Origin: Isoetes taiwanensis
Lineage: Eukaryota > Streptophyta > Lycopodiopsida > Isoetales > Isoetaceae
Length of the DNA stretch: 64,000 nucleotides
Direction of reading: 5' to 3'
Assembly (NCBI GenBank): GCA_021234155.1
Contig: JAJEKV010000099.1
Span: forward strand, 613,585 to 677,584
The position numbers were made by a program, and so were the translations under genes. The notes beneath the pieces are model-generated. The model made no database searches. It saw nothing but the letters and a program-made list of their open reading frames with translations, and was not told the origin of the DNA. Of this stretch, positions 1-31,984 are shown piece after piece. The first letter of the stretch is position 1, and each line of letters opens with the position of its first letter.

Positions 1-1691
1 TTCCGAGGTCGGGTGTGTCAGCTTAGTAAGAACCGACGGCGATGTAAGAGTCTCAACGCTCTTGCTCTTCGGGCTGATATGCCAATAGGTTTCTCTACTT
101 GTGTGTGTTGTAACAACCGTGTGGTGAAGTCGATGAAGTCATCTTGGCAATACTCCGCAAGATCATAGAGAATCTCTAATTTCTTGCGGCGGATCCCAAG
201 AAGAACGCAGAGAGGGCCCACATGATATCCTCAAAGATCGTAATTTTGGTCATTCAAGAGTACCGCAGGGAGAAGGTTTAACCCTTCGAGCTTGAGGGCT
301 TTCTCGCCTACCGGGCAGGGGCTTCGTGGCAAGTTCCTTCCACCTTACAAAAATCCTCGCCATTGACGACTTCGGCCATCTTCTCGGGTCGAGGTAGAGG
401 CGTAGAAGAATGCTCGCCAGAATCTCTTCATCCTCTATGTAATCGGGTCCATAATGATGGCCGCTGCAAATTGGGCCTCAAAACAAGTTTCCCGATCTAT
501 TGTAACAATAGGGAGGTCGGTCCTCGCCGCCTAATGCCTTTGATGACGCTATGCCATGCTCATCACCCCTAACATCTCGTGTGGTATGAAAGTCAAGATA
601 GAGCCGCCATCGCCTTCATTGTAAACGCATGCGTGTACAATCTCCTCACAATAGAATCAAGGAAAGCAAAGATAACTGATGGCTCATGATGTTGAGATAA
701 GATCTACTCACAAGGTGTAGGGGTGAAGAAGATCAAAGGGAACCGCAGGTCCCAATGCTCTCCGGCCCAAATACCACCGCCGCAAGGTTGGGCGAGCCAT
801 GAGGGGTGAAGGCTAAAAGGAGGAGAAAGAAGGGCTTAAAGCAAGAAGGAAAAATGAAACCCTAGTGGCCAAAAAGGGGTTTTATACTTTTTGGACGCTT
901 CCTAAATTATTATTAAAAAGACTTATTTACTTAATAATAATTTCCAAAAAATATTTTTATATTCACAACCCCAAAATGGGACTAGTACATGGATAAATTA
1001 CAAAAATTGTACAACCGGAGAAAAAAAAAAACTGGTCATTTAATCATCTAAAAATCCCCTCGGATCCTTTCGTACAAGTGAAGGTCCTTGGGCATAATAG
1101 TAACCCTCTTTTATGTATGGCGCAAAGGTTGCGCCGCCAAGAGTTCAATAAGATAAGCCTCGGCCTCCTCAGAGGGCGGTGCAGGACCGCGAAAAGCTTG
1201 AAACCTTAGGGTCGGTTTTGAAGTCCCGGCGATTCCGCATAAAGCACTGGAAGGGAAGCCGGCGGATCAATGGCTCGGTAGTCTTCTGGATACTTCACGT
1301 ATCTCTCGAAGAGCTACCGCGTTTCCGCCGATATCTATGGGCTTCCGCTGCTTGAGGGTCGCTTTTGCCGGCATGGAATGGATTTGCCGCCGATGAAGGA
1401 TGCTTTGTCCGCGGACAATGTGCTCCCCGCCTTCGAGCCGGCGTCTTTGGTAATTGTTGCATCCCGCCGCGCTTGGGTCTTATAGTGCACCCCACTCCTA
1501 ACAGTCCGGATTTCGCTCTTTCAATCTCCGGGCATACCCCCGCCAGACGATCGCCGTGGGTCCATTGGTTAACGCCGATGTGGTTTTCCGGGGTTAACGC
1601 TCGAGCCGCACTCTAGGTCCCGCCGGGTCAACATCAAGGTTCCATTGCCGCTCCACCTCGCCGGGTAATCTTGCTGATCCCCCGCCGATTC

Positions 1692-2346
1692 TCACTCCGG
1701 CTGACTATGAAGGTCCTCCCTTCCTTTTGAGCCGCCTCTCTTCGCCCGGGCTCTCTCCGTGATGCACTTTGGGTGCGCCGCAATCTCAAGGCCCGTGATG
1801 TCTTCTTGGATGGATTCCGTGGCATTGGCTAAACCTTTGGCGGAACGCTTTTCAAAAATGAAGCATGGAAGGCCTTCATTCCAAGAAAAGGTAGGAAGAT
1901 TAAAGTATTCTTGGTATGTGAGTATACGACCCTTTCCCAAGTAATAGAAGCGGTCCATCCTTAGGTCTGGTGGAGCACTGGCTATCTGCTGCAAGTCTTC
2001 CACTCTCGCAAGATGCATGATCCTCTGGGCTTCACTCCGAATAAGCTCGGCAGGGTCTTCATCTGGTCCTGGCGAGGGGTAAAACTTAACCACGCTTTCA
2101 TGCACGATCCGGCCGCTTCCACGAGAGTGTAGGTTCTGATCGGGCTTCATTCAACTTGATAAGAAAGCGCTCGTTGAAATGGAAGATAGGGTAGGGGACT
2201 CTTCGGCCCTCGACAAAGTGCTTGACGAAAAGATCAAGAATGGTATCTATCATAGGGTCTTCGTCGGCAAGATGCTCGACTAGTGCGGCAAATAGCTGGA
2301 ATACGCTCAACTTCTTCAATTCCACGGTTAGCTTAAAGCGCGGCAT
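1692..2346 (-). pseudogene. Unidentified leader ORF of the minus-strand retroelement (frameshifted)
   Basis: Two overlapping minus-strand reading frames together cover about 215 codons. The first starts at the ATG at 2346 (MPRFKLTVELKKLSVF) and runs to about 2098. The second carries on from about 2150 to 1692 (VVKFYPSPGPDEDPAELIRS, then LGKGRILTYQEYFNLP). A single-base shift in the overlap would join them. The composition looks protein-like (amphipathic, few low-complexity runs), but I recognise no domain. It sits 0.7 kb downstream of the LTR and primer site, the place where the complete element at 17.5 kb carries its H3-like gene, so it is probably an accessory leader ORF rather than gag. 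It does not resemble a histone. An in-frame ATG at 2397 is possible but adds only a hydrophobic run. Confidence 0.4.
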
Positions 2347-11708: not shown

Positions 11709-14700
11709 TCAATATACTTCTGTGCTCTTTTGCAGCTGAGCATACGTGTTGGAGAGCAAGGATAGGGCAGCCGTATTCTCTGGTTCAAGCTTTAAAACAT
11801 GTTCTGTAGCAAGTTCTGCCAATCCCACATCCATGTGATTTCTACAAGCACCAAGAAAAGACATCCACAATATGACATTAGGTTGGAATGGAATTCTATT
11901 AAGAAGTTCCAATGCCTCTTTCAGGTGACCAGCATGACCTAAAAGATCAATCATACAAGTATAATGATCCTCATTTGGAGTGATGTTGTATTCATAACTC
12001 ATCAAATGGAAATAGCGGTGACCTTCATCCACTAAATATGCATGGCTGCATGCAGAGAGAATGGAAATAAATGTGATAAGATCGGGTTCCACCCGTTCTT
12101 GTTGCATTTGCTCAAAAAGAGTCAAAACTTCAATGGAGTTCCCATGCTGCGCATGCCCTCCAATCATAGCATTCCAGGAAACTATACTTCGTATACGCAT
12201 ACCTCCAAAGATACTATAAGCTTCATGTATACTGCCACATTTAGCATACATATCCACAAGGGCACTTTCCAGAAAGACATCCAACTCACAGCCAGTTTCT
12301 AACATGTGATGGTGAATTTTTCTCCCATCTTCCAGATTTGATAAGAAACCACATACACTCAAAATGAAGACAAAGGTCACAGCATCCGGTTTCACCCCCT
12401 CGATCTGCATTTTCCTGTACAGATCCAGAGCTTTCTTTGCATCCCCATGTTGGAAATACCCCCCAATCAACGCATTCCATACAACCACATTTCTGTCATC
12501 CAAATGCTCAAATACTTTGCACGAATCTTCTAAACTACAACATTTAGCATACATATTAATAAGTGAACTTCCAACAAATAGATCAAACTCACAACCTTCT
12601 CTTCAACATGTTACTATGAACTTGTTTTCCAGCTTCAAATGATGGCATGTTTGCACAAGCAGTTAAAGCATTGATGAAATCAGTCTTGCTTGGGTTTAGA
12701 TCTTCCACTTGCATCTGCATGAAAAGCTTTAAAGCTGTCTTATTATGCTGACTCTGTGCCAATTCTCCTAACATTAGTGTCCAGGTGTATGCATTCACTG
12801 TGGGTACAGTTCTAAACAATAAATGGGCTTCCATAATCCACTTCACCTGCACATACATTTCAATCAGCATGGAAGCAACACTCACATCTGAAATATATCC
12901 AGAGTTCAACACAGCTGCATGAATGCGCTTTCCATATTCGGGCCATGCTATGCCGCTGCATGCTGTTAACATGCTCATATATGTGGTCTGATCTGGTTTT
13001 GTACTGGCTTGTTCCATTTTCCAGAACAGGTCAAAAACCCCTTGTGTTCCATATTGCATATATCCTCCTATCATTGTATTCCAGGAAACGACATCCCAAG
13101 TGGGCATAATACTGAACACTTGAAACGCATCATTTATGCTCCCACATTTCGCATACATGTCAACAAGGCTATTATAAATTAAGATCTCTTTAGAATAACT
13201 AGAGATCAAAAATCTCAGAATGCACTTTTTACCGAATTCTAGATTTTGCACAGAAGAACATCCATTTAGAATGCTGATAAAGGTGACTTTGTCTGGACAC
13301 AGAGCCATTTCTTGCATATGACCAAAAAGTTTAATGGCTAATCTACAATCGCCATGATGTGAGAACCCTGAAATCATCACATTCCACAATATAACATTCC
13401 TTATAAGCAAGCTATTGAACAATTTACAGGCATTCTCCATACTGTCACATCTAAAATACATGTCAATAAGAGCACTGCTCACAAAGACATCCGGTTCCCA
13501 TTCAAACTTTAAGACAATTGTGTGCATGTATTTTGCTTGCCCCATATCTGCAAGATCGGCACATATATTGAAAATACTAACAAATGTTGTACTATCTGGC
13601 TTCACATTGATTTCATGCATTTCTTTGAACATATTGAGTGCTTTTTTGCTCAGGCCATACCAGCAATAACCCCTCAACATTGAATTCCATAATATGACAT
13701 CTTGTGAAAGAGAGCTATCAAATACTTGATCAGCATCTCCTAAACTCCTGCATTTTATATACATGTCAATAAGCGCGCTCCCAAGAAAACTGTCACATAT
13801 TGGGCTGACTGCAAGGACCTCAGCGTGAAGCATTTTTCCATGCTCAAGAGAAGACATTGCAGAAAACGCACGCAGAAAATCCAAAAAAACAGCTCTACTT
13901 GGTTTCACAACTTCATGCTTCATTCTTTGAAAAAGATACAAAATTGACCTGTTATCATCATGTTGATAAATGCCGATGCCATCGTGGCCCATGTCAAGTC
14001 ATCCTTTGTGGTGGTCATGCCGAAGATTGCCTGAGCATTCTCAAGACTTCCACAATTTGCATACATGTCAATAAGTGCTGTAAGAACAAATGTATTAGAG
14101 TCAAGGCCAACTTTTAAAATAGAACCATGGGTCCGCTTTCCCCTCGCAAAGGCAGCTACACTGGTGCATGCATTCAAGGAATTGATGAATGTCACGTCAT
14201 CTTGAACTAACTCTTCTTGTTCCATCTGAGCCAAAAGTCTGAGTGCTTCTTCTGCATGTCCATTTCGCATGCATCCTGCAATTATTGCATTCCATGAAAT
14301 TGTGTCAGGAATAGACATCCTACTGAACATGTGGTAGGCCATTTCCATGCTACCACATTTTGTGTACATGTCGATAATTGTATTATTGACAGGATTACTA
14401 CTGTTTTCCTTAGACATCACAATTGAATGAATGCGTTTTCCTTGTTCGAAAGATGGTATGCTTGCACATGATCTCAAAATGGCCATCATTGTTATTACAT
14501 CGGGATCCACACCCTGCTGCTGCATTTGCATAAAGAGCATAACTGCCTCCTTCCCATCTCCATGTTCTGTGTATCCTTCTATAATTGTGGTCCACACAAA
14601 TACATCTCGCGTACACAATCTGTCAAACACATCACGAGCAATTTCTAAATTCCTACACTTGACATACATGTCAATGAGCGCATGGGCAAGCTGGATATCC

Positions 14701-15542
14701 AGCTTGAGCGCGTTGTTCAGAATGTAAGCATGCAGACATTTCCCTTCTTCAATGACACATTTGCTGGCACAAGCTTTCAGAATAACTAGAAGAGTAACTT
14801 TGCTAGCCTTCATACCTGTGGCTTTCATTTTCCAAAACAGCTTCAGTGCAATTGCACTGTCCCTATGCACTGCACTTGAAATAATTATATTCCAGCAGAC
14901 CACATTTCTCTCAGGTGTATTCTCAAATATCTGAAAGGCGTCTGCCATGCTCCCACACTTACCATACATGTTCATGAGTGTGCTACAAACGGATGTGTCT
15001 AATGGGCATCCAACTTTTAGAATAATTGCATGCACTATCTTACCATGTTGCAGAGATCGTGTACTTGCACATGCACCTAAGAGAATTATAAATGTTATTC
15101 GATTTGGTTCTAGGTCTTGATGCAGCATTTCTGCATAAAGCTTCAGAACCTTGAAAATATTTCCATCACGACCATATCCTGCAATTATTATATTCCATGT
15201 AAACAGATTTTGCCTTGGCATGCGGTCAAAGATGTTTTGAGCATCCACACTACTTCCGCATTTGATATACATATTTATTAGTGTATTTGTGATGAAGATA
15301 TCTATCATGTCTCCTCTTTTGATAATGTGGGCATGGATATGCTTTCCTTGTCTATAACTCTTCAGATTGGTGCACTCCTGTAAGAGAGGTATACAAAGCT
15401 GCGTACATACCTTGGTACCACATTGAGTTTCAAAGTTTCCCGTTGCTTTCAAATCGATGGCCTTATCTTTCTCTTCATCCAGCGTACAATTCCCCAGTGC
15501 ATCATGAACACAAGAAATTCTGCAAAAGGAATCCCTCCTCAT
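11709..15542 (-). CDS. PLS-class pentatricopeptide repeat protein, long, with two frameshifts
   Basis: PPR proteins bind organellar RNA and direct editing, splicing or stability in plastids or mitochondria. Three minus-strand blocks form one gene: 15,542-13,920, 13,992-12,589 and 12,554-11,709. Blocks one and three share a frame; the middle one is offset. About eleven P-L-S triplets are visible, each marked by an LIDMYxKCGS-type L/S motif and an RDVxxWNxxIxGY-type motif, so over 30 repeats and nearly 1300 residues. The C-terminus has the L2/S2-like NEDHYTCMIDLLGHAG and an E1-like block (LKLEPENTA), then stops; E2 and DYW are missing. The frame breaks are single-base indels near 13,965 (missing base) and 12,597 (extra A). 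There are no internal stops otherwise, so this is a young pseudogene or carries consensus errors. The start at 15,542 is the first ATG; the targeting peptide is not obvious. No intron is seen. Confidence 0.9.
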
Positions 15543-17525
15543 AAGCCAATATTTCTCTGAACTTCCAACTCATCATATCCAGATGTACCTTTTAAATCCA
15601 GAACAACCTGGAAAAAGACGATCTTCAATCTGACAATTTAAACCACTAACTAATCTTGCCTCTGGTATATTTTTGAATCTCGGATACGTTATGCTTAAGA
15701 AATTAAGCATTCTCTGTACACCAAATATTCAGGAGCAAGACTAAGCTAAAATCGTCAAGCGTATGAAGCAGAAACTTAAGATAGACCTGGTTGGCAGCAG
15801 TTTTTGTTGTATGCGGCCCCAACAGAGAGCATAATGAGGGCTCCCCGGGCCCGTTGTCCATCAACCGCATCTGGCCTGATGAAGAACGTAAACAGTATCA
15901 AGACAACATACAAATCTAATGGATGAAGCCAGAAATTTACACACACAAAAATTTACAGACACGTGCATGTGACTACATGTATAAATAGCGAATAGAACAA
16001 TCGTTATTTCCCAGTCTACAAACAGATCTTTTTTGAAACCCACCATTTCTTATCCTATTTTTGTTTTTATTTCACGCCCAAAGCCCACATAAGCCATAAA
16101 CCATACAAGAAATTTATCGCGGCAGGAACATTTCTCTTTCTCGGCTCCTTGTATTTTGAGTTTGTAGCATTGCATTATGGTGCCAAGGTTAGTATCCTTC
16201 TGATCTATCTCGATTTTGGAGTGATATATCTGTCTAGAGTGGAGGAAACATGGAATCGTGTCTATTGACGATAGAAAGAACTACCTTGTCATTGGACCCA
16301 CTTTCATTGTAACAGTTTTTTAAAATGGAACTTAAAAGGTTGCAAGTTTGAGTAAGTCTTAATAATATTTAACAAAGCCGTGGAAAGGTCTTTAATATAT
16401 TTGTTAATATAATGCACCTTGTATTATCAAATTGTCATTTTGTAACAAATTTAAAAATTCTTTAATTTTGAACGGGATGAACTATTTAGGGTCTGCAAAT
16501 CCGACAAATCCAACTTGGGTTCTAAATGAGGATATAGAACCATACTCTGGCTAAAATAGGTTTCTTGTAGGCTCCCCTCTTCCTATGTGAATCTTGTTAG
16601 TCGATGTCTACATACACAAGAAACACCATCACGTTTTGGCCAAAGTGGTACCATATTCTCTTTGTTCGTACGTGCTAATGTGTTAAAAATTTACCGTCAA
16701 ATTTTCACCCATGACATATTAGTCTATGTGGCATTGATTACATGTATAAAGGGCTAATCTCAAAAATTGAAACAGAATAGATGTGTGCCAATCACAAGCA
16801 TATTCTGACTCTTGCCCAACAGAAAGAGGAGATGGAGATAGAGAGGAATTTCAGGCATAGGATCATCGGCCTGAGTGAATAGGATCGGGAAGAGAAATTT
16901 GGGAAAGTTGTCAAGTGCATTTGGAGTGAGACGAAGGGGAAATGACTGAGCAATTTTGTTACCTGTGTAGTAACACTGTTTCAGATCTTCAACTATCCGA
17001 GAAGGGGCATTCTATCAAAGAATAATAACAAACCTCAAGTCAAATGCTCGCATAGATCAAACAATTGGCCCGTCTCTTGCCTTGTCCAATTCTGATATAA
17101 ATTTGAAATAATCCTTAAGCATCTTAGCACAACTAAACGATAATTAGTGTTAATCTCAAACTTTCTTTAACGTAATTCTTTAAATGCAATTAGACAGTCA
17201 TGAAATAATATTTTATTAAGCAATAATATGTTGATTCTTCTACACATTGTATGCATCTACAGATGAGGCAACATTTTTGTCTTAGTAGCTAGCCTAATCA
17301 CCATAACTTAATCAAAGAAAACAAATGTCCTTTGAGTATCTGATATTGGATGGCCAGATTATGGGCCATGGAGTACCCACTAGCATCCCACCATTTTAAA
17401 CCTTATATCCATGGAACTTCCATGAACGGATACAACCTTTTTTTGGTCGAAAACAACCTTTACTTGATCTTACTTTAAAAATTAAGCATTAATTTTATTC
17501 TATGGCGACGGTTGAAGCAAGATAG
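15543..17525. other. Intergenic DNA between the PPR gene and the chromovirus
   Basis: This 2-kb stretch holds no supported reading frame. The first few hundred bases would contain the PPR promoter and 5' leader, but I see no convincing TATA placement. Confidence 0.5.
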
Positions 17526-19178
17526 TGAGATTACATCCGGGACGGGGAATGGAATATACGCCATAAATACGATATTCCTCGATCCGCTACTATACAAGTC
17601 TATTCATAGCCTTGTATACCATAGGTTGTGGCACTAGGGGGGCATGGCCAAGTTATTCTCATAACTTAGCCAACCATGGGTTAGACCATTATCCACGGGC
17701 CTTAACCCATTGGGGGCACCCGCCACACAGGACTCACCCGATTGGTGCCACGTGGCATCCTAGGTGGACCTAACTTATATAGGCCTAAACCCTAACCCTA
17801 GGCCTCTTTTCCAGCCCTAGCACCCAGAGATCACCTACTGCTCAAAACCCCGCTTCAACATCGCTTGTTAGGCATAGGTCTGGGTGCAAAGCCCCAAACA
17901 GGTAGACTCGCTCTTGGAGTAGGAGCAAGACTCGTGAGTCAAGATCATGGAGGCACACGGATCCGAGGGAGAGCTTCGTGAGCGTGTATATAGGATAGTA
18001 GTTGTGATAGCTTATCCGGAATTAGCATTCCAGATATGCTAGTATCTTGTATCTAGAGTAGAGCCATCCTAGAACTCAGATTCAACATCTTGAACCCTAA
18101 TCAATGAACCCTAACCGTTAGTTAGTTGTATGATTAGGTTAAGATGTTGTTCTTATGATTATTCTCATGATATGATGATTATGTGATGATGGTTGATCAT
18201 GTTTGCTCCTCTTGTATTGGGAAGGGGGTAGAGACCTAGAGCCATATGTAGTATGCTCCCTAGATTAGATCCCTTAGTTCCTATTAGTTCATGCTCAGGC
18301 ATAGGAGCCCACCGTGCTATTGAGGCTATGATATTTACTCAAAGACCCCACAACGGGGCTAGAGGGAAAGTGGAGGGTGGATCCCCGCCGAGTGGGGGGC
18401 TTGAGGGGGATCCCATAGTGGGCTAGGCTTATGGTCGGTCACTTCTGTGGGGCGAGCATGGGTCCGGACACCTCCCCGGGCAATGGTGCCGCCGCCCGAG
18501 AGCCGCAAGTGTTGGCTTGGCTCGCTTTGGGGGTTAAGTCGGCACCTAATCGCGGTGTCGCCACGCATTCTCTAGTCGCCCACCGAACCTCTAGCCACCG
18601 GGAAGGGAGATGCAACCCTTCCCGCCTGGGGGACCTGTGGGAGATGCAACCCGAGTAGTCCCGATGGGTGATGCCATGGGACCGCTGTGATCCGAAGGCT
18701 AGAGTCCCGCCGAGCCCTGGATTTAGCCCATCTGCAAAGTATGCACGTGAGGGGCGATGGAGTGGTCAACCCTAGCCATTGTTCTATGCCAGCCCCCGCC
18801 ATTGCCATGACACCCTGGCCCACCGCTTCTATCTTGAGGCCTAGCTCTGGCCACCATCCTCCTTACGAGTCTGAGCCGGGGTAGGAGCTCTCGTGTTTCG
18901 CAGTTGTGCTTATCATCTTTGTATTGGTATATGTGTGATGCACTACCCTTCGTGGTAGTATTTGTATATGTTTGATGCTAGTTCTGACGTGTTATCGCTT
19001 CCGCTGTATAGGAGCCCATAGGGGAAGGGCGCGCAAGACACCTTCGTGTTCCCTCCCCGCACTAGGGATCCCCTCGAAGTGCGGGGTAGACAAAGGGCCC
19101 GTGCGGTTGTTGAGCCGGACGGGGGATTTCCTGCCGAGTGTACGGCTGGGCGCCGTATGTTTAGCAGGGAGCGTCACA
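17526..19178 (+). repeat. 5' LTR of the chromovirus
   Basis: About 1.65 kb, homologous along its length to 29,123-30,762. It ends GTCACA at 19,178, one base before the primer site. The exact start is uncertain: the 3' LTR starts TGTGGCGATC, but here the first 10-20 bases are altered, so the start may lie anywhere from 17,526 to 17,541. It contains the GGCCTAAACCCTAACCC motif downstream of a TATA box. Confidence 0.85.
17776..17781 (+). promoter_or_regulatory. Probable LTR TATA box
   Basis: TATATA lies about 250 bp into the 5' LTR and is followed by a pyrimidine-rich stretch, the layout of an LTR promoter at the U3/R junction. The matching place in the 3' LTR reads CATATA (about 29,361). Confidence 0.45.
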
Positions 19179-19179
19179 A

Positions 19180-19191
19180 TGGTATCAGAGC
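19180..19191 (+). other. Primer-binding site, initiator tRNA-Met
   Basis: TGGTATCAGAGC, exactly the usual plant initiator-Met primer site, starts two bases after the 5' LTR. It fixes the element's orientation and the 5' LTR end. Confidence 0.95.
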
Positions 19192-19753
19192 AATGTTCTT
19201 GGTTGACCAAGAACTAGCACTGACCATAACCATGAAGGTAGTCTAACAGGCCTATAGGGGTGGGAAATAAACATTCCACCATTGAACCGCGAAAATGGGG
19301 GAAAATTTTTTTTCTCCTAGGTAGTGGGTCAGGATTTAGGTTAAGTGTTAGACGAAGGAATGAGTGAGTCAAATTCACCTTCTAGAAAAATTGGAGTGAA
19401 AATTATGCATCTGCATCAAATTTCACCTAAAATGGGTCGAAGAATCATGCCAATCGGAGACCCAGGTGAAAAATGGCGCGAACTCATAATTAGCACTCCA
19501 AACCATTAGAGAAATTCGAAAATTTAAAGATAATATCAATTAATATAGGTTAATATATACATTAATAGTTAAATAATTACTAAATATGGTGTAATTAATA
19601 AGGGGGGCTAATAAATAGGAGTAATTATGGTAGGAGAATATTCCCAGGGACCCTCCTTTTTAAATATCTGACACCTCATTCTCTCTCTCCAACCCTTCAC
19701 CTTCACCTCTCTCTTGCTCAGCCTTTCATCACCCATTTTCTGAACCATAAGAT
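19192..19753 (+). other. Untranslated leader between primer site and H3-like ORF
   Basis: About 560 bp with no open frame, rich in A and T. A pyrimidine-rich run (CTCTCTCTCC and neighbours, about 19,680-19,715) lies just before the start codon at 19,754, as often seen at plant promoters or leaders. Confidence 0.5.
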
Positions 19754-20872
19754 ATGGCTCGTACCAAACAAACCTACAGGAAGCCTGGACCTAGACCCAC
19801 CCTCTCCATGGCGCAGGCAGCAGGGCGACATGTCAAGAAGGTCCCCGAGCATCTTCGGCCGAAGCCAGGCGATGAGGAGTCCCCCGCCAGCAGCAGCAGC
19901 AGCGAAGACTCCTTCCATGATGCCGAGCAGAGCCCCAGCAGTAGCTCGTCATCAGGAGGCACGCAGAGAACGGGTGAATCGCGCCACTTCGGGGCCTCAG
20001 ACACCGAGGTGGAGGAACAGGTTGAAGAACAGGTGGAGGAGCAGCACCACCACCAGACCGAAGAAGCGGGCCCTTCAGTGCCCAAAAAGAAGGGGAAGGA
20101 GAAAGTCACGGAGTGGCCTGAGGAGAGGGCCGCCAGGAAGAAGCGGGAGCGGGAAAGGGAGCTGAGGGAGCGAGAAAGGAGGACGAAGAGGAGGAACGAC
20201 GCCCCGGCCGACCGCCGTTATTGAAGAGCCCCCTACAGGAGGAGGAACCACAAGTGGAGGGCTTATTTGAGAAGAGGAGGAGGAGCAAGCAGCTAGGGCT
20301 CCTCGACGCTAGGGCCACCCTACCCCAGTGGCCGGAACCACCTAAAGTGGTGAAGAAGCAAAAGGTAGGGGGAGGGCTGCTCAAGGCTCGACAGACCGCA
20401 TGAAGTTCAAGCGAAGATGGCGGCAGATAAGGAGTACCTTCGCCGCTGGACGAGGTACAATGAGTGGTACCGCCGCCAGAGGTGCAGCGCATAGGTTGTG
20501 GGAGGGGCAGCAGTCAAGAAGAATCAGCCCAAGCCACCCCCACCTAGACCGAAAACCCAAGAGGGTTCACCACGGGCCAACAAAGACGCGACGCCGGGGT
20601 GTTTAGGGAGATACGGCACTTTCGTGATGTGCACGTAATCTCCCGATAAGGAAGGCGCCTTCTCGAGCGCCTCCTTAGAGAGGTCATGCGCCAGATTCCG
20701 GACCGGGACATGTGGTAACCCCTCTAATGACCCGGCCCCGCAGAGGTCAGCCGGGCTGTAGCTGGTGCAGCTCTTCGAGGAGGGAAACCTCTGCGCTATC
20801 CATGCTAAGCGGGTCACCCTCATGCCGAAGGACATCCACTTAGCACGGAGAATCCGCAGGGAGAGGCCCTAG
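19754..20872 (+). pseudogene. Histone H3-like protein carried by the chromovirus
   Basis: The ORF starts MARTKQTYRKPGPRPTL; canonical H3 starts MARTKQTARKS, so nine of ten positions match (Ala7 is Tyr), with Pro at position 10 of the tail. A roughly 280-residue tail follows, with two Ser/acid clusters, a VEEQ triplet and a Lys/Arg-rich stretch; normal H3 has about 45 residues before the fold. The fold is spread over three frames: REIRHF (20,605-20,622, alpha-N), PIRKAP (20,643-20,660), ERLLREVMRQI (20,665-20,697, alpha-1), then [15 protein letters not shown] and [12 protein letters not shown] to the stop at 20,872 (alpha-2, alpha-3, C-terminus). REIRHF and the long divergent tail recall CENH3; the RRIRRER ending recalls canonical H3. 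Lesions: at least four frameshifts and a TAG at 20,759 where H3 has Tyr. Bounded by primer site and gag, same strand. Role unknown. Confidence 0.85.
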
Positions 20873-21686: not shown

Positions 21687-22700
21687 ATGGCGCCCAGCAA
21701 CTTTGAGAGATGGTACAATGTCGCCACCACATCCATCGCCTTCCCCGTGGATCAAGCCTTCTCTCGTGTTTGACCATTGCTTGATCTTCATGCAACTCTC
21801 GACTAGAACACCCTACTACACGGACATTATGTGCCAATATGACCAGCCAGGTCCCCGCCTTTGGGAAGTTAGATTACCCCCTAGGGGAGGGAATTGGGTT
21901 TCTCTTGAGACACTTACCCAAGCCTTAGGTCGAGAGTTGGCAGGTTCCAAAGGCAAGAAGCAGCTATGGGATAGGACTAGGACCATGCCCGATTACATGA
22001 CCTGCAGACACAATAGGCATAGGTACCTCTCGTCTCAGACAGCCCTTGCCCTCTTCATGTACTATAAGTCAATCAACAAAGTAGGGGAACCTTCTGTTCA
22101 GCCCTTAGACTTAGCGCCACTTGATACCCGTAGGGCCCAGGATCAAATCCTAAATATAGAGTCCTCCGCCTACGAATACTATGGCATGACGTCTCGGGCA
22201 CCATCTCTGCAGATTCATGAAGACTACGAGCAGCTAGGGGAGCAGAACCCAGAATGGGAGAGCAGGGAAGCAACAAGAATGCAGAGGTACGCGTTGAGGC
22301 ACGATGACGACGGAGAGAACAAAGCCTAGCCCACCCACCGGCGGCATCACAGCCTTTGTCACCGATAGTCATCGACGGGAGGAGTACATTTTGCAAATGA
22401 CATCCTCAACTTGTCCCATCGTCGTGAATGGTGGTCTTCGAATCGACGAGCTCTTGGGCATGATAGCACACGGAAGAGCATGACCTCATCGACTATTCAT
22501 ACCAGGAGATTCCAAGGAGAGGCGGAGAGACACTCATATCTTTGGGAGACAATGTCGGATATAGCAGCCTATCAGCAGATAAGGGAGATCTATCGACAGC
22601 AGGAACCTATCATCTAAGAGGAGGAGTTCCAGCAGATACAGAGCACACTCTACAAACCGGGAGGGGCCCAAGCTCAAGCTTCACTCCGTTCGAGCGTAAG
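21687..22700 (+). pseudogene. Unidentified leader ORF 2 of the chromovirus
   Basis: A frame starting at the ATG at 21,687 (MAPSNFERWYNVATTS) shifts near 21,770 into a 180-codon stretch that ends at 22,329. Recognisable text there includes PRLWEVRLPPRGGNWVSLET and YEYYGMTSRAPSL. Protein-like sequence goes on in a further frame from 22,411 (HSYLWETMSDIAAYQQIREI) to about 22,700. I recognise no domain. It lies between the H3-like gene and gag on the same strand. It could be a second accessory protein or a divergent upstream part of gag. The true end may lie near 23,220. Confidence 0.45.
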
Positions 22701-23511
22701 CATGAGGGAAGGGTCCAAAGAAGATCAACTTGGACAACGAACCAAAGATGTGGAGAGACCATGAAGATCTTATGGCGAAGAGATGCCTACTGATTTTAAG
22801 CAGCTCAAAGGAAGGGCACCGGATCGCGAGGCGTAGGGAAGGGCACGACGCCGCTACTATCTTCCGCCCCCTAACCAAGGGCAAATGATAGTCTTCCACA
22901 AGGAGTTCAGCCCAAGGGGAAGAATCCGTGGCACTTCTCATAGCACTTTCGGGCTTGAAAGAAAGACTCGAAGATATACCCATGCCTAACCACATCATTC
23001 TTTCAACAGGCGCCAAGGCTCCATTGCCTCGACTTCATGAGAGGGCACCTCAGTGGATGCAACACTTTCGGTTGTAGCAAAGAATAAAGACTGTAACTTC
23101 CGGGCAGGAGATGGCCCGAAAGCACTTGAAGGAAGATCGACGAGGAACATCTTATGCAATCCCCTCGCAAAGGCCTCCGATTCAGGGATGTCAAGAACTT
23201 CTTCAGGCTTTCGGGAGGCCATTGAATAGTTGTTAAATTCTCTTAAGTCTTGTGCTAAATGATTTCTTGTACCCCATTATGCTAAGATATATCTACCATT
23301 ATCATGTAATCCTTATGCATTAATGACTATTAACTGTTTTGCAAATGTAAGGCTTTGTATGATTTCTTATAACTAAAGATAATTCAATTGCAAGTAAAAT
23401 TGATCAACATCTAACCCAAATAAAATGTATTGATGATCAAACCTTGCAGCAAGGAATTCAAGTGCAGGATCCCAAGACCAGCACCGACCACGCAATTGGG
23501 TACCAAGGAAC

Positions 23512-24690
23512 TTGTTTGGCAGAGAACAGGAAGACTTTGAGCAGGATATGTCACCAGAGGCAATCAACGCAAGGCTGGTGCAGATGAGGAACCAGATGCA
23601 GAACCTCATCAACTGGGCGGCACCACTGATGAATGAGCAGGAGGATGGACCCCTACCTCCACCTCCACCTTGTTTTCCCGTGGTGACGGTAAGTCCTCGC
23701 CAGGAAGGGAGGGCAAACCAGGGGAACGCCGGGGATAGAAGAAGGAAGAGGAGAACTAAGAGTCCATCATCATCTAGCTCCAGCTCATCAGACAGTTCTT
23801 CCAGTGAGGACAGCTCTAGCTCCGACAGTCAGTCTGGCACACCTAAAGCAAGGAAAAGAGCAAGAAAGACAGATGACTATCAGAAAAAGGTGGATAGTGC
23901 TATGAGCAATGTATGGAAGACAAGGAAGCTGGGCCGCCGGGGAAAGACAGTCGTCGCATGGAGGTCAAGCATGGCTTGATGAAATGGAAGAATTTGGCAA
24001 CTCCTACTTATGAAAGACAAGGACATAGGGAAAGTTGCTACAGCCTAACCTTATTGGACCGGCAAGGATCCGTGGAAGGGATATGCTAAGTCTAACAAGT
24101 CAAGAGGAACAATTGCAGTGTTTAAGACCTTCAAAGAAGGCTTTCCGCGAAGCACTATGTGCCAAGGTCTCATACTAGTAGACGATCCAAAGATAGTTTT
24201 ACAAAGTTGAATCGTGGTAGCTTATCAGTGGCTAAGTATACCTCAAGAATTCATGAGGCTTAGGCTCCATGTTCCCCGAGTCTCGAGAGAGGCAAGCAGT
24301 GGATACTTATATTGAGGGGTTGAACAAAGAATATCAAGAGGCTTGTTAGAGCAATCAACCCAAGGTCATTTGCAGAGGCCTAAGATAAAGCTATAAGTTT
24401 GGAAGAGGCACCAAAGAACTCCGGTAAGAGTTCGTAAGGCGTGATCGGGGACAATATCGGGGTAAGCAATCAGCAGCCTACACCATCAGGAGTCAGCAGC
24501 AAGGTAAGGGTCAGAATAAAGCTTTTGGGGACCGTGAAGCCACGTAATGCATCATGGGCAGGGCGGTTTTAAGCGCCTCCTAGACAGTCGCCGAAGGAAA
24601 GAGACAGAATGCATTGAGAAAAAGTTATGCTTGTGTGCTTCCAGCCAGGGCACCGAACACATGATTGTCCATTCGTCATGCAGTCAGCCT
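23512..24690 (+). pseudogene. gag: Gag of the chromovirus (capsid and zinc knuckle), frameshifted
   Basis: Gag forms the virus-like particle and packages RNA. The first block (23,512-23,979) has a coiled, acidic N-terminus, a Pro run, then an extensive Ser/Asp cluster flanked by basic runs (RRRKRRTK, KARKRARK) that could act as nuclear signals. A typical retrotransposon gag signature follows in broken frames: LSVAKYTSRIHEA (about 24,215) and VDTYIEGLNKEYQEAC (about 24,305). A zinc-knuckle relic CFQPGHRTHDC sits at about 24,636-24,668; its first cysteine is lost to a frame change. The start at 23,512 is the first ATG of the open frame and may not be the authentic one. Confidence 0.75.
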
Positions 24691-25307
24691 TGGCAGAACT
24701 CTTGGATTGGGACTCCCCAACAGAAGCGGACGAGGACGACGACCAGCAGGAGGCCCAGGACTTCATAGATGGTGAGTGCCACATATGTGCAAACATTGAG
24801 ACAGGTGATATAGAGAATCGGGATCGATCGTCATTCGGGGCTGATGGGATCATAGATAGTAATCCATATGTAGTCCTCATAGATACAGGTAGCTCTCATA
24901 ATTTTGCATCTCCTAGGCTGGCTGCTATAATGAAGAACAAGGTATTGAAGTCTAAGCCAAGGCCAGTGGCTATGGCAAATGGCGCCATTCGACACACTAA
25001 GGGGAGGAGGATCATCTTTGACATAGACCTTAGTGGGGCTAAGTGGCCGATGGGAGCGGAAGTCATGGATATCGGAAGATATGATCTCATAGTGGGGATG
25101 GAATTCTTGAAGCCAGCCAAAGCCATGATTGATTGCGATCGGAATGAAGTCACCATGACGGCACCAGACGGCACCAAATTGATAGTGAAAGGTAAGAAGC
25201 TAGATTCTCCTATGCAGTGTATTTCCTTGAAGCAGCTAAGGAAGAGTATAGAAAGGAATAAGGTGGACTACATCTTGAGGATGGAATCAGTTGAGACAAA
25301 AAGGTGA
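24690..25307 (+). CDS. Retroviral-type aspartic protease of the chromovirus
   Basis: The protease cleaves the Gag-Pol precursor. The active-site motif DTGSSHNF begins at 24,882, preceded by a hydrophobic strand (VVLI), and the second conserved strand-loop is IGRYDLIVGMEFL (about 25,072-25,110). This segment is open from the zinc knuckle in the same frame to a TGA at 25,307, so gag and protease were continuous. The frame breaks just before RT. Length and motif spacing are normal for Ty3 proteases. Confidence 0.85.
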   Translation: MAELLDWDSPTEADEDDDQQEAQDFIDGECHICANIETGDIENRDRSSFGADGIIDSNPYVVLIDTGSSHNFASPRLAAIMKNKVLKSKPRPVAMANGAIRHTKGRRIIFDIDLSGAKWPMGAEVMDIGRYDLIVGMEFLKPAKAMIDCDRNEVTMTAPDGTKLIVKGKKLDSPMQCISLKQLRKSIERNKVDYILRMESVETKR

Positions 25308-25429: not shown

Positions 25430-26710
25430 ATGGCTCCGGATGCAAAGCCTACCAAGAAGGGCCATATAGAATGAGCACCCTGAATTGATTGAGCTCAAGA
25501 AGCTCGGGAATTGCTCGAGCTTGGATTTATAAGAGCAAGTGTGTCTCCTTTTGGAGCACCTATACTCTTTGTGAAGAAGAAAGATGGGAGCTTAAGAATG
25601 TGCATAGACTATCGTCAGCTCAATAAGCAGACGATAAAGAACAAGTATGCATTGCCAAGGGCAGATGACCTAATGGACCGTTACAAGGAGCAAAGGTATT
25701 CTCTAAAATTGATTTGAGGTCGGGATACCATCGATAAGAATAAAAGAAGAGGATATCCATAAGACCGCTTTCAGAACGCGGTATGGTCACTTTGAGTTTA
25801 CAGTAATGCCCTTTGGACTATCGAACGCTCCAGCAACGTTTATGCGCCTCATGAACGACATCTTCAGAGACTTCTTGGATGAGTTTGTTATTGTCTTCTT
25901 CGACGACTTGACATCCTAATCTACAAAGAAGTCCCTTGAGGAGCATTGTCAAAGATCTCAGAAAGTGTTGGAGAAGTTGAGACGCCATCGGTTGTATGGG
26001 AAGCTCTCTAAGTGCCACTTTGCAATAGGCCGAAAGTGGAGTATTTGGGGCATGTAGTAACATCCGAGGGAATCTCCATGATCCATCTAAGATTGAGGCA
26101 ATAGTTGATTGGCCAGCCAAGGAATGTGGCAGAAGTAAGAAGCTTTTCTGACATGGATATTACGTAAAGTTCGTAGAAGGACTTTTGCGAAGTGGGCGCC
26201 CCTTTGTCGGACTCACTAAGGCCAAGAAGATTAAGGATTGACTAGCCATTGGTTAGAGAAAGTCCAAGCTTCTTTTGAGAAGCTTAAAGAGGCCTTAACA
26301 ACAACACCAGTGCTTTGTTCTCCGGATCCGAGTAAAGATAAGTTGGTAGCAACGATGCAAGCAAGATAGCAACAGAGCAGCCTTTGATGCAAGAAGGAAG
26401 AGTAGTCGCCACGACCGGAAGAAGATGAACGACGCCGAAAGCAACGCTTACCCAACCCATGATCAGGAGCTGCTAGCCATTGTCGGGGCATTGAGGATAT
26501 GGAGGCATTATCTGGCTGGGAAGGAAGTTTCAGTTGGATACCGATCACCGTGAGCCTTCAAAAGATCTCTTCACCCAACCACTCCTCAACTTAAGGCAAA
26601 GAAGGTGGATGGAATTCCTTGAGGAGTATGACTTTGATATTGTATATAAGCCCGGTAAGCTTAATGTTGTAGCAGATGCCCTCTCCAGAGACCATTTCGC
26701 ATAAGGATGC
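25430..26710 (+). pseudogene. Reverse transcriptase and RNase H of the chromovirus, frameshifted
   Basis: RT copies the element RNA and RNase H removes the template. RT blocks in order: [20 protein letters not shown] and DYRQLNK (25,540-25,635), [20 protein letters not shown] (about 25,780), and the catalytic VFFDD (25,893-25,907), an accepted variant of YxDD. KLSKCHFA and VEYLGH follow (about 26,010-26,050). RNase H shows NDASK (about 26,350), AYPTHDQELLAI (about 26,445) and FDIVYKPGKLNVVADALSR (about 26,635-26,690). At least five frame changes and an in-frame stop near the catalytic loop make it dead. The order RT-RH directly before integrase is typical of Ty3 elements. Confidence 0.85.
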
Positions 26711-26735
26711 ATTGTAATGCACGATTTCCACTCTT

Positions 26736-28045
26736 TTGAGTGAGTTTGGCAAGAAGATTGAGGAGTCCTTGCCAACAGATGTGGACTTCAAGGAGGTATG
26801 GGAAAGTCTTTCCAAGGAAGCCGTAACGTATAAGGAGCGGAAGCCTTCAAGCATTATAAGAAGGAAGGCAAACTCGTTGTATCACAAGCATAAGTTGTGT
26901 GTGCCCGAATCGCCGTGGGTAAGGAAGCTAATTCTTCATGACACACATAACAGCCCAATAGCAGGGGGGCATGGGCTTCATGAAGACCTATTTCAAGATT
27001 CAAGTAGCTACTTCTCGCCAGAATGAAGAGGCAGATAGCCGCGATATATTCGGGATTGCCGTTATGTCGGCCAGACCAAAGCTGAGCAACTTCGATTCCA
27101 GTGTGCTCTTGAGCCATTGGGGGTGCCAAATGCAAAGTGGGAGGTCATAAGCATGGATTTCATCACAGGTCTCCCTAGAACTCTTCGAGGCAAGGATGCA
27201 TTGATGGTTGTCGTAGATAAGTTATCTAAGATGGCACATTTTGTGCCTTGCAAGACTACTGACACCGCATTAGATACCGCCAAGTTATTTGTAAGGGAGA
27301 TTTTCAGACTCCATGGCATGCCTCGGGAGATAATATCTGATAGGGATTCCAAGTTTATGAGTGCCTTTTGGCAGGACCTCTTTAGCACCATTCAGACGAA
27401 GCTCTCCATGAGCACGGCATATCATCCCCAAACAGATGGTCAGACGGAAAGGGCGAATCGGATCATTGAAGACATGCTTCGGAAGTTATGTGTGGAACAA
27501 GCAGTCCAAGTGGGATGAGTATATCCACTTGGTGGAATTCGCCTACAATAGTGCCAAGCAGGAGTCATCTCAGATGTCTCCTTTCATGGTAAATTACGGG
27601 TACCAGTGCTTAACCCCGGATACCTGGCACAATCCTGTGTCCAAGGTAGAAGTGTCCAAGGTAGAAGTGTTCCAGCAGATGTTAGGGGATATGCAGCAGC
27701 TAGTGGAAGAAGTAAGGGGTTACTTATTGGCAGCAAGAAGTCGGCAGAAGAGTGTAGCCGACAAGCATAGGACCGTAAGGGAGTTCAAGGTAGGCGATAG
27801 CGTTTGGTTGAAGATCAAGGTGAAGCAAGCCAAGCTGCGGATTGGGAGTTGCAAGAAGCTTGCCCCTAGGTGGGCTGGTCCGTTCAAGATTTTGGAGAGA
27901 GTGGGCTCTCAAGCCTACAAGTTGGATCTTCCAGCCCATCTCAAGGTTCACAAGGTCTTCCACGTAAGTTTGTTAAAAAGGCACAATCCTAACCCTGAGG
28001 AGGTTTTGGATACTCCAACCTTGTTGGAAATGACGGAGGAGCAGG
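26736..28045 (+). pseudogene. Integrase of the chromovirus, frameshifted
   Basis: Integrase inserts the cDNA. The HHCC zinc region is visible as LILHDTHNSPIAGGHG (about 26,930) and CRYVGQTKAEQLRFQC in a broken frame (about 27,058-27,110). The catalytic core has MDFITGLP (Asp at 27,155), SDRDSKF (Asp at 27,339) and TERANR (Glu codon 27,447), giving the D-D-35-E spacing. A one-base shift near 27,500 moves to the next frame, which runs through EFAYNS, the GPFKILERVG strand and VFHVSLLKRH, the usual GPY/F region, into the chromodomain. The catalytic residues are intact; only the frames are broken. Confidence 0.88.
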
Positions 28046-28260
28046 TAGAAATAGTGCCTGAGTTACTTCTTGATAAGTCATTCAAGAAGACTAGGAGGTC
28101 TCGGTTCCTCCAATATTTGGTTAAGTGGAAGCACTTACCCGTGGAAGATGCCACATGGGTATTGAAGCAAGATTTGGAGAAACAATACCCAGAGTTTATG
28201 AAGGAGTTTAATGGGCGAGTCGTCTCCGACTTGGTCGACCCCGACTTGCCAGGTGGTTAG
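28046..28260 (+). CDS. C-terminal chromodomain of the integrase
   Basis: The last 70 codons of pol begin near PELLLDKSF and contain FLQYLVKWKHLPVEDATW and a terminal helix EKQYPEFMKEF before the TAG at 28,258-28,260. LVKWxxLPxEDATW is the chromodomain signature of plant chromoviruses. In that family the domain tethers integrase to heterochromatin, in some members through methylated H3. The two Trp cage-type residues are present; the first aromatic cage position of canonical HP1-like domains is not evident, so it belongs to the degenerate-cage type. It is fused in frame to the preceding integrase tail. Confidence 0.85.
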
Positions 28261-29111: not shown

Positions 29112-29122
29112 AAGGGGAAGAA
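29112..29122 (+). other. Polypurine tract
   Basis: AAGGGGAAGAA directly precedes the TG of the 3' LTR. This is the expected plus-strand primer and it fixes the 3' LTR start. Confidence 0.9.
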
Positions 29123-30762
29123 TGTGGCGATCGAGGGAATATAAGCCATAAATACGTATATTCACGGATAAAGTCACTATACAAGTCTATCTTCATAGCC
29201 TTGTATACCATAGATTTAATAGCACTACAGGGGCATGGCGAGAGTTATTCTCATAACAGCCAGCCATGGGTTGAACCATTATCCCGTGGCCTTAGCCCGT
29301 GGGGCACCCGCCACCTGAGAACTCACCCGATTGGTGCCGTGGCATCCTAGGTGGACCTAACATATAGGCCTAAACCCTAACCCCCAGGCCTCTTTCCATT
29401 CCTAGCACCCGAGACTCACCTACTGGATTGGAAACCCCATTTGGGAACATGCGTTTATTGTGGCATAGGCTGAGTCGGCAGCCCCGGTGGGCCTTCGTTC
29501 TTGGGTAGGAAGGCTGACACCTGCATTGAGTCGAAGATCATGGAGGCACAGGATGCGGGAGGGAGAGCTTGGGAGGCGGTATGTAGGATAGTAGTTGTGA
29601 TAGCTTATGGAATTAGCATTCAGGATATGCCCCAGTATCTTGTATCTAGAGTAGAGCCATCCTAGGGTAGTATTCAACATCTTGAACCCCTAATCAATGA
29701 ACCCCTAGCAGTTAGTTAGTTGTATGATTAGGTTAAGATGTTGTTCTTATAAATTATTCTCATGATATGATGATTGCTTGATGATGGTTGATCATGTTTG
29801 CTCCTCTTGTATTGGGAAGGGGGGTAGAGACCTAGAGCCATATGTAGTATGCTCTAAGATTAGATCCCTTAGTTCCTATTAGTTCGCGGCTTTTGTGCAT
29901 AGGAGCCCACAGACTGTGAGGCTATGATCACGACTGGCACCCCATACTTGGGGCTAGAGGGAAGTGGAGGGTGGATTTTGCAGTGGGGCTTGGGGGATCC
30001 CATAGTGGAGGCTAGGCATGGTGGTCACTTAGGTGTGGGTGAGCATGGGTGGAAGCACACTCACAGGGCAATGAGTGTAGCCACACTTTCGAGCACAGAG
30101 TGTTGGCTTGGCTCGTTTTGGGGGTTAAGTAGAAGTGCAGTCGTGTGTAAACCCGCGGTGATTCTCTAGTAATACGAGAACCTCTAGACCACAGGAAGGG
30201 AAGTGCAACCCTTCACCGCACCTCGTGGACCCGAGGAGGTCACAACACAGGTAGTCAGATGGGTAGTGCCATGGGGCTAGCATTATCGGAAAACTAGAGA
30301 TCTGTCCGAGGCGATTCGCCCATACCGCGAAGTATGCACGAAGGAGAGGATCGATCAGTCAACCTAGCCATTGTTCTATACCAGCCCTGCGCCATTGCCA
30401 TGACTTCGATTACGCTCTATCTTGAGGCCTAGCGATTCGGTCATCCTCCTTACAGTGCAGTAGGGGTAGGAGCTCTCGTGTTTCGCTGATTGTGCCCATC
30501 ACATCTTTGTATTGGTATATGTGATGCACTACCCGCCATTGGTAGTATTTGTATATATTTGATATAGTTACGGCGTGTTATAAGCTTATTTGTATAGGAG
30601 CCCATAGGGGAAGAGCATAGGAATTACCTCGTGTTCCCTCACAGCACTAGGGATCCCCTCAGTCGCGAGGGTAGGCAGAAGGGCCCGTCTTGGTTGTTGG
30701 GCGGACGGGGATTTCTGCGAATTATGCGGTACGGCCGTATGTTTTAGCGGGGAGGCGTCACA
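29123..30762 (+). repeat. 3' LTR of the chromovirus
   Basis: It runs 1640 bp from TGTGGCGATC to GTCACA and is collinear with the 5' LTR. Some blocks are nearly identical (for example about 29,585-29,610 and 29,790-29,850), others are heavily altered. The divergence implies an old insertion, or base-calling trouble in GC-rich blocks. Confidence 0.9.
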
Positions 30763-31984
30763 ACGCCGGTACTTAACTATATCCATTTATAACACTTGCA
30801 TAATCTTGATGGTTTCTCCATAGTACATGCATAACAAAAGCGACTCACGTCTTGATAATAAATGGGAGGTATTGAGTGTGCTCTGTGTGTGTTTTTGCTT
30901 CAAGGTATACAAAACACAGGAACAACAATTCCTTCTCATAGGTAGAATAGGTTACAATCAGCAAATTTTACACTTTCTTTGGTTTCCCCCATTACAGAGT
31001 GTAAATCCAACGAAATAAAGAATACTCACTCCTTAGGATCCTCCAAAGCGATATACTCCTCATGATTATGGCGTACAATATTATCTACAACCTACAAAGA
31101 ACTGCGTCATTTAGTACTCAAATGGGATAGTTTTAGTTTTACACCTCCCCTCTCAGGAGAAAAGATTTTACCGGCAAATTTTTTCATGTTTTGAACACTT
31201 TCCGATGCTTTTTATCCGTTTTTTCTTCATCTGCAATTTTCCGGTCGTGTTTCCTTTGGTGTAAACCGAAAGTCTTCCCTGAAATGTTGCATCTATTTGG
31301 AATGTAAGTTCAATATCCAACCTTATTGTATTTTGCAAATGCATAATCTCATGTTGGAACTACTCCATCCTCAACTCGAGTCTGGCAACAAACATCCCAT
31401 TTTAAGATTATTCATAATTGACTCGTGGATGACACAAACATTAACTATCTCTTTGGATATGAAGGAGGACAAACCCAATGGAAGAGCTGAAGGTTATCAC
31501 TGCGAGCACTAGTTGTAAAAGGAAGTCAGTGCCACGATATCTAAAAAAAACAAATGCAAACACAAAGAAATCATAGTACAAATTGAATGGAATACCATAA
31601 TTTAACTGCACCAGCCTCACCTTTTTTGACGAAACATATCGCTGCTTCAGGTCTACTGGAATTATAGGAGGCAACCCCCCTGTCAATGCATAAACCTAAT
31701 TTCAAATAGATAAATATGCCTAGAAATGCATAAAGACGAACAAAAAAATTAAACAAATCAATTGCAAGAAAGGAGATAAATACCTCGGTGCATTTATTGG
31801 CTCCTGATTATGGGTTGGATTCCAATGGGGTATTAGACTCGTAGATTGTCTTCTATTTTGCAAGTCGAATACCAAAAATGGGGTATTCGGCTTGTAGATT
31901 CGCATGTAAATTATGTAAGTCAAATACGCCCAAAAAATATTGTGTGAGTCGAATACCCCTCCAAGTAAAAAAAAAATTGTTAAA
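30763..31984. other. No recognisable gene
   Basis: AT-rich flank of the chromovirus. The small frames at 30,827-31,018 and 31,297-31,512 show no motif. A phrase around GTATTCGGCTTGTAGATTCG recurs imperfectly at about 31,830-31,950. Confidence 0.5.

Follow-up and report, generated by a model that had tools for sequence, protein, structure and literature searches.

This study describes a lineage of chromodomain-bearing Ty3/gypsy retrotransposons in the genome of Isoetes taiwanensis in which an additional gene upstream of gag, here termed ORF1, encodes a protein ending in a histone H3 fold. With a probability that we place at roughly 0.6, ORF1 is a captured H3 gene that serves this lineage as an accessory gene, is kept by selection and acts on chromatin. 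The element through which the lineage was recognised lies in a stretch of 64,000 nucleotides (hereafter the window), for which the initial annotation had reported an H3-like open reading frame between the primer-binding site (PBS) and gag, on the strand of the element.

This placement was borne out, as the PBS (19180..19191) and the gag region (23437..24633) enclose the H3 block on the element's strand, the + strand, on which all other parts of the element also lie. The element is bounded by a 5′ LTR (17551..19179), whose true first base is perhaps approximately 10-20 nt further upstream, and a 3′ LTR (29136..30763), the two being 78.4% identical. The PBS, TGGTATCAGAGC, the letters of which were read directly, adjoins the end of the 5′ LTR and is one that we take to be of the initiator tRNA-Met type. 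ORF1 (19754..20872; tblastn of residues 1-369 of the intact relative P0121 aligns to 19754-20869) is followed by a second pre-gag gene, ORF2 (21687..23222; tblastn of P0124), which sits between ORF1 and gag and was absent from the initial annotation; ORF1, ORF2 and gag are all broken in this copy. The gag region was located by tblastn, its Retrotrans_gag/Ty3_capsid domain being detected in the product (P0127) of a related copy, L012. It is succeeded by a zinc knuckle end, recognised by eye, and an aspartic protease (24618..25304; PF08284, 7.7e-9), a broken reverse transcriptase (RT) region (25430..26551; tblastn of the pol stretch of copy L014) and an integrase with a C-terminal chromodomain (26721..28257, the chromodomain at approximately 28057-28212; PF00385, 1.7e-11; PF24626, 2.3e-23; tblastn), while a polypurine tract, AAGGGGAAGAA, was noted by eye upstream of the 3′ LTR (29112..29122).

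As in Ty3/gypsy chromoviruses, there is an LTR pair, a tRNA-type PBS and a chromodomain after the integrase (PF00385, 1.7e-11), and the genes follow the order gag, protease, RT, RNase H and integrase, in which RT, RNase H and the integrase core were assigned by sequence and position and the Pfam scan covers the protease, the chromodomain and PF24626. Possession of a chromodomain distinguishes the element from those of the Tat/Ogre group, which are not known to carry one. The chromodomain carries YLVKWKHL, with I and L at the cage positions Y24 and Y48 (by eye), and agrees with the Galadriel-like motif as described in the available text of PMC3350952 (YLVKWK, without the Y24/Y48 cage); judged by the chromodomain motif alone, the element would fit a Galadriel-like assignment. 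Elsewhere in the window, a 549-codon open frame with pentatricopeptide repeats is present at 13920-15569 on the - strand (PPR_2, 7.5e-61), part of a different chromovirus integrase, with stretches sharing 48-81% identity with the integrase of the present family, was found at 53360-53966 on the + strand, and an Rfam scan of the window returned nothing at gathering score.

The H3-like open reading frame had been described as beginning with MARTKQTYRK and containing the alpha motifs in order; the letters are right, but they do not form a single open reading frame, as stops and frameshifts interrupt them. Frame 1 from 19754 reads MARTKQTYRKPGPRPTL..., the N-terminal tail motif MARTKQTYRK occupying 19754..19783, and continues as MARTKQTYRKPGPRPTLSMAQAAGRHVKKVPEHLRPKPG and then as a long charged stretch until a stop right after 20224; the open stretch of this frame (19751-20224) comprises 157 codons, with the stop included or next. 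The histone fold, from alpha-N to the C-terminus (20599..20869; translation, Pfam and PDB), is split over three frames, REIRHF and ERLLREV being in frame 3 (20599-20715), IRKAP in frame 2 and the last 36 residues in frame 1 (20762-20869). These 36 residues alone match the Pfam Histone family at 1.9e-13 and PDB H3 chains at 8e-14, and their similarity to H3 is far beyond chance.

The genome (1,658,258,908 bases on 1110 contigs) contains many further copies of this family, designated A. A DNA search with the window ORF1 gave 1386 first-look candidates, from which 40 copies including that of the window were scored, and 36 of the 39 others match ORF1 positions 1-1119 with identities of 79 to 88%. 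When the intact ORF1 P0121 served as protein query, 21805 candidates and 111 scored matches were obtained, all of the latter at E <= 4.4e-162; the matched part is free of stops in 79 of these, of which 65 span residues 1-369 by hand count. Twenty of the 39 DNA-scored copies, chosen by similarity to the query, were fetched with their flanks, and ORF1 proved to be intact in nine (362-370 codons), with a complete H3 fold (PF00125, 5.2e-29; PDB H3, 6.4e-31). The PBS and LTR end are present upstream of ORF1 in 19 of the 20 (at least 84% of the length of the PBS stretch 19150-19260 being matched), gag lies downstream in all 20 (in L025 only 74% of it), and RT and integrase are both full in 16. The search for H3 together with other parts of the element within one copy, which had been proposed as a check, was thereby successful (PBS/LTR in 19/20, gag in 20/20), and a mere proximity of H3 blocks to element debris is ruled out by the same counts. 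The LTR ends of one copy with an intact ORF1 are 98.2% identical over 328 bp and those of a second copy 92.2% over 332 aligned columns, these being the two fetched copies that the comparison covered.

Copies were also picked by integrase DNA alone (8415 candidates, 40 scored, 39 besides the window). An ORF1 match lies approximately 6.4-7.0 kb upstream in 11 of the 39, and the expected H3 place was fetched for 14 more, bringing the number examined to 25. H3 sequence was present at 12 of the 14 fetched places, in part at L044 (stretch edge) and L046 (internal deletion), and several of these places show the decay of old copies, L047, L052 and L054 having 66-69% identity. No H3 was found at the expected place in the remaining two, L045 and L055. 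The H3 match of L045 lies 18.0 kb upstream of the integrase, next to L021, a copy ending in RT, and because the displaced H3 (11 kb further out) adjoins a copy broken off in RT, a nested insertion is the likely explanation. For L055 an H3 match lies 19.3 kb out, and it and the integrase may belong together. The initial annotation had named an absence of the block at this place in other copies of the family as the refuting outcome; the block is in place in 23 of the 25 copies examined, contradicting that outcome.

Selection was assessed, as the initial annotation had suggested, by dN/dS on intact copies. In family A (nine intact copies, 36 pairs, Nei-Gojobori, pooled; intactness being selected beforehand), dN/dS was 0.13 for residues 1-40, 0.145 for 41-117, 0.15 for 118-183, 0.056 for 184-275 and 0.043 for the H3 fold (276-369), with difference rates in the fold of 0.032, 0.013 and 0.200 at codon positions 1, 2 and 3. 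The corresponding values in family B, described below, were 0.121 for the N-terminal part and 0.034 for the H3 part (five intact copies, 10 pairs). The sole part of gag-pol measured, the last 160 codons of pol in family A (open in 8 of 20 copies), gave 0.096. The fold of family A is accordingly under strong purifying selection, stronger than that on the measured pol stretch (0.043 versus 0.096), although the comparison is rough because dS differs between the two (0.34-0.58 by ORF1 segment in nine copies versus 0.18 at the pol end in eight) and the copy sets, while overlapping, are not the same. ORF1 and the pol end may not share exactly one history, recombination between subfamilies being possible. 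Nucleotide identity is 89.3% in the 700 noncoding bases after ORF1, 89.1% in ORF1 and 91.8% in the fold; noncoding and ORF1 identities being nearly equal, the constraint is visible in the codon positions and hardly in overall identity.

A search with canonical H3 (9022 candidates, 150 places scored) separated 15 places that are 96-98% identical to canonical H3 from 135 at 71-86%, many of the latter being situated in open frames of at least 400 residues. The 15 were taken as host H3 genes, three of which were read; two of these, L029 and L030, differ at positions 31 and 87 as plant H3.1 and H3.3 do. Six of the 135 non-canonical places (L032-L037) were fetched, and all six belong to one further family, B. 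ORF1 of this family comprises 409-413 residues and is intact in five of the six; in it, an N-terminal domain that differs from the one in A is joined by a basic linker to an H3 fold which is 86% identical to host H3 (PF00125, 2.5e-41). The canonical H3 format of approximately 136 residues with its tail is seen in neither family, ORF1 being 362-370 aa in A and 409-413 aa in B. Counted as H3 genes, the scored places amount to 111 family A matches and 135 non-canonical H3 places.

In the one B copy read for this feature the PBS lies approximately 0.75 kb upstream of ORF1, and the ORF2 that follows B ORF1 is a homologue of A ORF2 (BLASTP 3e-5 and 9e-9; approximately 23% identity). One copy without pol in 8 kb had raised the idea that family B is non-autonomous; this was dropped, as all four further B copies (L040-L043) show pol, L042 being without RT, and three of them gag, which is absent in L040. 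A and B are 61% identical over gag-RT and 72-78% over RT-IN. Between ORF2 and gag, the same four B copies contain a further open frame of approximately 123-166 residues (MFSIH.NYVAEETIWEYEERITDM...).

A third family, C, is represented in the window by a relic on the - strand (1054..2310; tblastn P0123, 3.2e-19 and 9.6e-8) in which a B-like N-terminal domain precedes the H3 fold, with an ORF2-like relic downstream of the H3 gene (120..803, - strand; tblastn P0125, 1.8e-5, and P0126, 1e-7). The genome gave 627 candidates for this family, of which 40 copies including that of the window were scored (39 others); C is known from its ORF1-H3 and the ORF2-like stretch, the two parts that the comparison covered. 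The H3 end of one C copy, which is open, shares 85% identity with B, 84% with host H3 and 60% with A. ORF2 itself, 509 codons long in copy L012, had no match above cut-off in a Pfam scan, and its AlphaFold model in family A was too poor for use (pLDDT 32.1). Its identity as the capsid gene was ruled out by the finding of Retrotrans_gag in the next open reading frame (P0127, 3.1e-17). Similar hairpin-helix stretches recur, by eye, in ORF2 and the N-terminus of B ORF1.

The residues of the three H3 folds bear on the number of captures. B and C share F at position 87, A at 107 and L at 124, which are absent from the three host H3 genes read, and H125 is common to A and C; because of these shared residues a single capture is favoured, and it would seem most likely that H3 was captured before A, B and C split and was then kept. 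The earlier proposal of an ancestral capture and subsequent retention of an H3 gene is thus sustained by the 23 of 25 copies with H3 in place, the nine of 20 with an intact ORF1, purifying selection, a sister family, B, with its genes in the same order, and a third family, C, with an H3-fusion ORF1 and an ORF2-like stretch behind it.

The fold retains much of what a cellular H3 requires. R63, K64, R69, R72, R83, C110, H113, A114, K115, R116, T118, K122, D123, L126, R129 and I130 are kept in all nine A and all five B sequences, and we take these, on the strength of known nucleosome and ASF1 structures, to be the residues that touch DNA, H4, the second H3 and ASF1. Family B also keeps alpha-N and most nucleosome contacts; the AlphaFold model of its ORF1 was of insufficient quality for a test of the fold (pLDDT 39.8). 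In A, a portion of alpha-N is missing, M stands at K56, R at K79 and V or I at F84, and positions 87-90, which direct chaperone choice in H3.1 and H3.3, are mostly LMTR (FAIL in B). Because of these changes A may not enter nucleosomes normally.

Regarding the tail, ARTKQT is present in all nine intact A copies, the A tail running ARTKQTxRK, in which P, T or Y occupies position 10 (S10 in H3). K4 is retained, the K9 position still holds a lysine, and no ARKS motif was seen by eye at K9 or K27 in the A tail. The N-terminus of family B lacks a canonical tail. Of five B linkers, that of L036 contains ARKS and the other four AHKS or AHKA, and STGGK persists in the C copy that was read, so remnants of the H3 tail may survive in the B and C linkers. 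From these sequences we conclude that the fold appears suited to pairing with H4, the tail being altered or largely replaced.

The course of events that we favour would begin with the capture of a host H3 gene, which came to lie in the leader that separates PBS and gag, in an ancestor that most likely already possessed ORF2. Purifying selection would then have preserved the captured gene as three or more families diverged within the lineage. Its product would be a variant of H3 whose N-terminal part is either very long or for the most part replaced, and which may pair with H4 and join the host H3-H4 pool and chromatin. As a nucleosome component, its altered or displaced tail might receive the K9 and K27 heterochromatin marks poorly, permitting new copies to be expressed; alternatively, the N-terminal part of ORF1 might tether the element's particle or cDNA to chromatin. 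The position of the gene, its many copies, its retention, the selection on it and the conserved contact residues are observed in the sequences, from which we infer single capture, expression, H4 pairing, nucleosome entry and either use. The more specific proposal, that an H3 variant of the element's own in host nucleosomes, be it at the element's copies or genome-wide, blocks H3K9/K27 silencing or marks integration sites, and so constitutes a selfish, mobile epigenetic mark that predates the separation of the three families, is put forward tentatively, and its anti-silencing form is weakened by the tail-like remnants in the B and C linkers and by K4 and the K9-place lysine in A.

The H3 fold could instead help to build the particle, or package nucleic acid by condensing cDNA or RNA within it, and be no chromatin protein at all. 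Basic stretches and a histone fold could bind nucleic acid, and ORF1 would, judging from its position, share a transcript with gag; histone-based packaging is also known from marseillevirus. The available text of PMC9145170 states that the packaging function of marseillevirus histones was examined. The contacts to H4, the second H3 and ASF1 are, however, kept as in cellular H3, and packaging alone would not demand these, which leads us to regard such a role as unlikely. A further alternative would have the ORF1 protein titrate H4, ASF1 or H3 assembly factors, weakening silencing from outside chromatin. The conservation of ASF1 and H4 contacts in A alongside changes at 87-90 and in alpha-N is in keeping with such interference, but the retention of alpha-N and most nucleosome contacts in B speaks against it, and we hold it to be distinctly doubtful.

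The family A gene may derive from canonical H3 or from CENH3, the tree being compatible with both. Were it a host CENH3, ORF1 might be a device that steers integration to centromeres. Two motifs, REIRHFQ..TNLLI (alpha-N) and VTLM, are common to family A and Arabidopsis CENH3. In a maximum likelihood tree, for which five reference folds were entered by hand and C was left out, a clade of A and CENH3 was not rejected (p-AU 0.32 and 0.37). Against this, a weakly supported branch of the best tree (57/43) sets A and B off together, and the folds of B and C clearly resemble canonical H3 (86% and 84%). Loop 1 of CENH3 is longer than that of canonical H3, and no extra residue is present in loop 1 of A. 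By eye, the listed P0121 matches also seem to be spread along contigs. A centromeric device is, on this balance, improbable. Finally, the idea that a histone pseudogene landed by chance in a single dead copy or in a few, to which the broken state of the window copy with its LTRs only 78.4% alike and the two of 14 fetched integrase-selected copies without H3 at the expected place might point, can practically be dismissed in the face of 36 of 39 scored copies matching the whole block, nine of 20 intact, a dN/dS of 0.043, further families, and a nested insertion that fits the miss at L045.

Histone genes within genetic parasites have precedents. The hAT H3L of Pyrenophora tritici-repentis resembles the present case in that an H3-like gene lies between element ends and has multiplied together with them; the available text (PMC3538342) reports ESTs, a long and a short element form and, for the reference genome, 26 gene copies that are very similar. 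As in hAT H3L, an H3 gene has here been amplified inside a mobile element; hAT H3L is a DNA transposon, whereas the carrier here is an LTR retrotransposon with diverged families, measured purifying selection and long N-terminal parts. Among DNA viruses, bracovirus H4, single viral H3s, marseillevirus doublets and a nudivirus Orf1 of 1111 aa with a C-terminal H4-H3 doublet are described in the available text of PMC9145170; there too a histone fold occurs in a genetic parasite, in several instances with extended or divergent N-terminal tails, but the carriers are DNA viruses and not a retrotransposon. In the main text of that paper 'retrovir' and 'retroelement' do not occur, and 'transposon' occurs once, in connection with silencing.

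Tat/Ogre elements, which carry an ORF1 upstream of gag, likewise exemplify an additional gene in an LTR element. According to the text available to us, the present elements share with chromoviruses (PMC6317226, PMC3350952) the tRNA-type PBS, gag, PR-RT-RH-IN and the chromodomain, and differ in that ORF1-H3 and ORF2 precede gag. The statement that chromoviruses normally have only gag-pol needs qualification, as rice Retrosat2 has an ORF0 (PMC3485330) and is placed in the chromovirus clade Tekay (PMC6317226, as available). Bdelloid rotifer LTR retrotransposons have also captured open reading frames (PMC5408684); no histone domain is named for these or for ORF0 in the portions of PMC5408684 and PMC3485330 available, and the gene here is an H3. 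It had been remarked that no histone was described in this place, and indeed no retrotransposon-encoded histone was found in the open-licence literature, which excludes preprints and most subscription papers. The word 'histone' is absent from the main texts of the Isoetes taiwanensis (PMC8566536) and Isoetes sinensis (PMC10541799) genome papers. Searches of a protein database with ORF1-specific parts gave 55 and 1964 candidates, none at E<=0.01, in a short-exact-word search of a resource in which such elements are often unannotated; among the top protein-database matches, the three that were read (P0001, P0002 and P0004) were rejected as relatives, being tandem or concatenated canonical H3s. 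An element-borne histone was therefore known already, and what appears to be new is a retrotransposon as the carrier, in several families and with measured selection.

The silencing of retrotransposons by host genomes operates through marks placed on histone H3, and here a retrotransposon carries an H3 of its own. This raises the testable question of whether transposable elements fight silencing by supplying chromatin parts, and natural H3 variants with altered N-termini become available for study. Counts of H3 genes in such genomes can, moreover, be inflated by the copies of an element.
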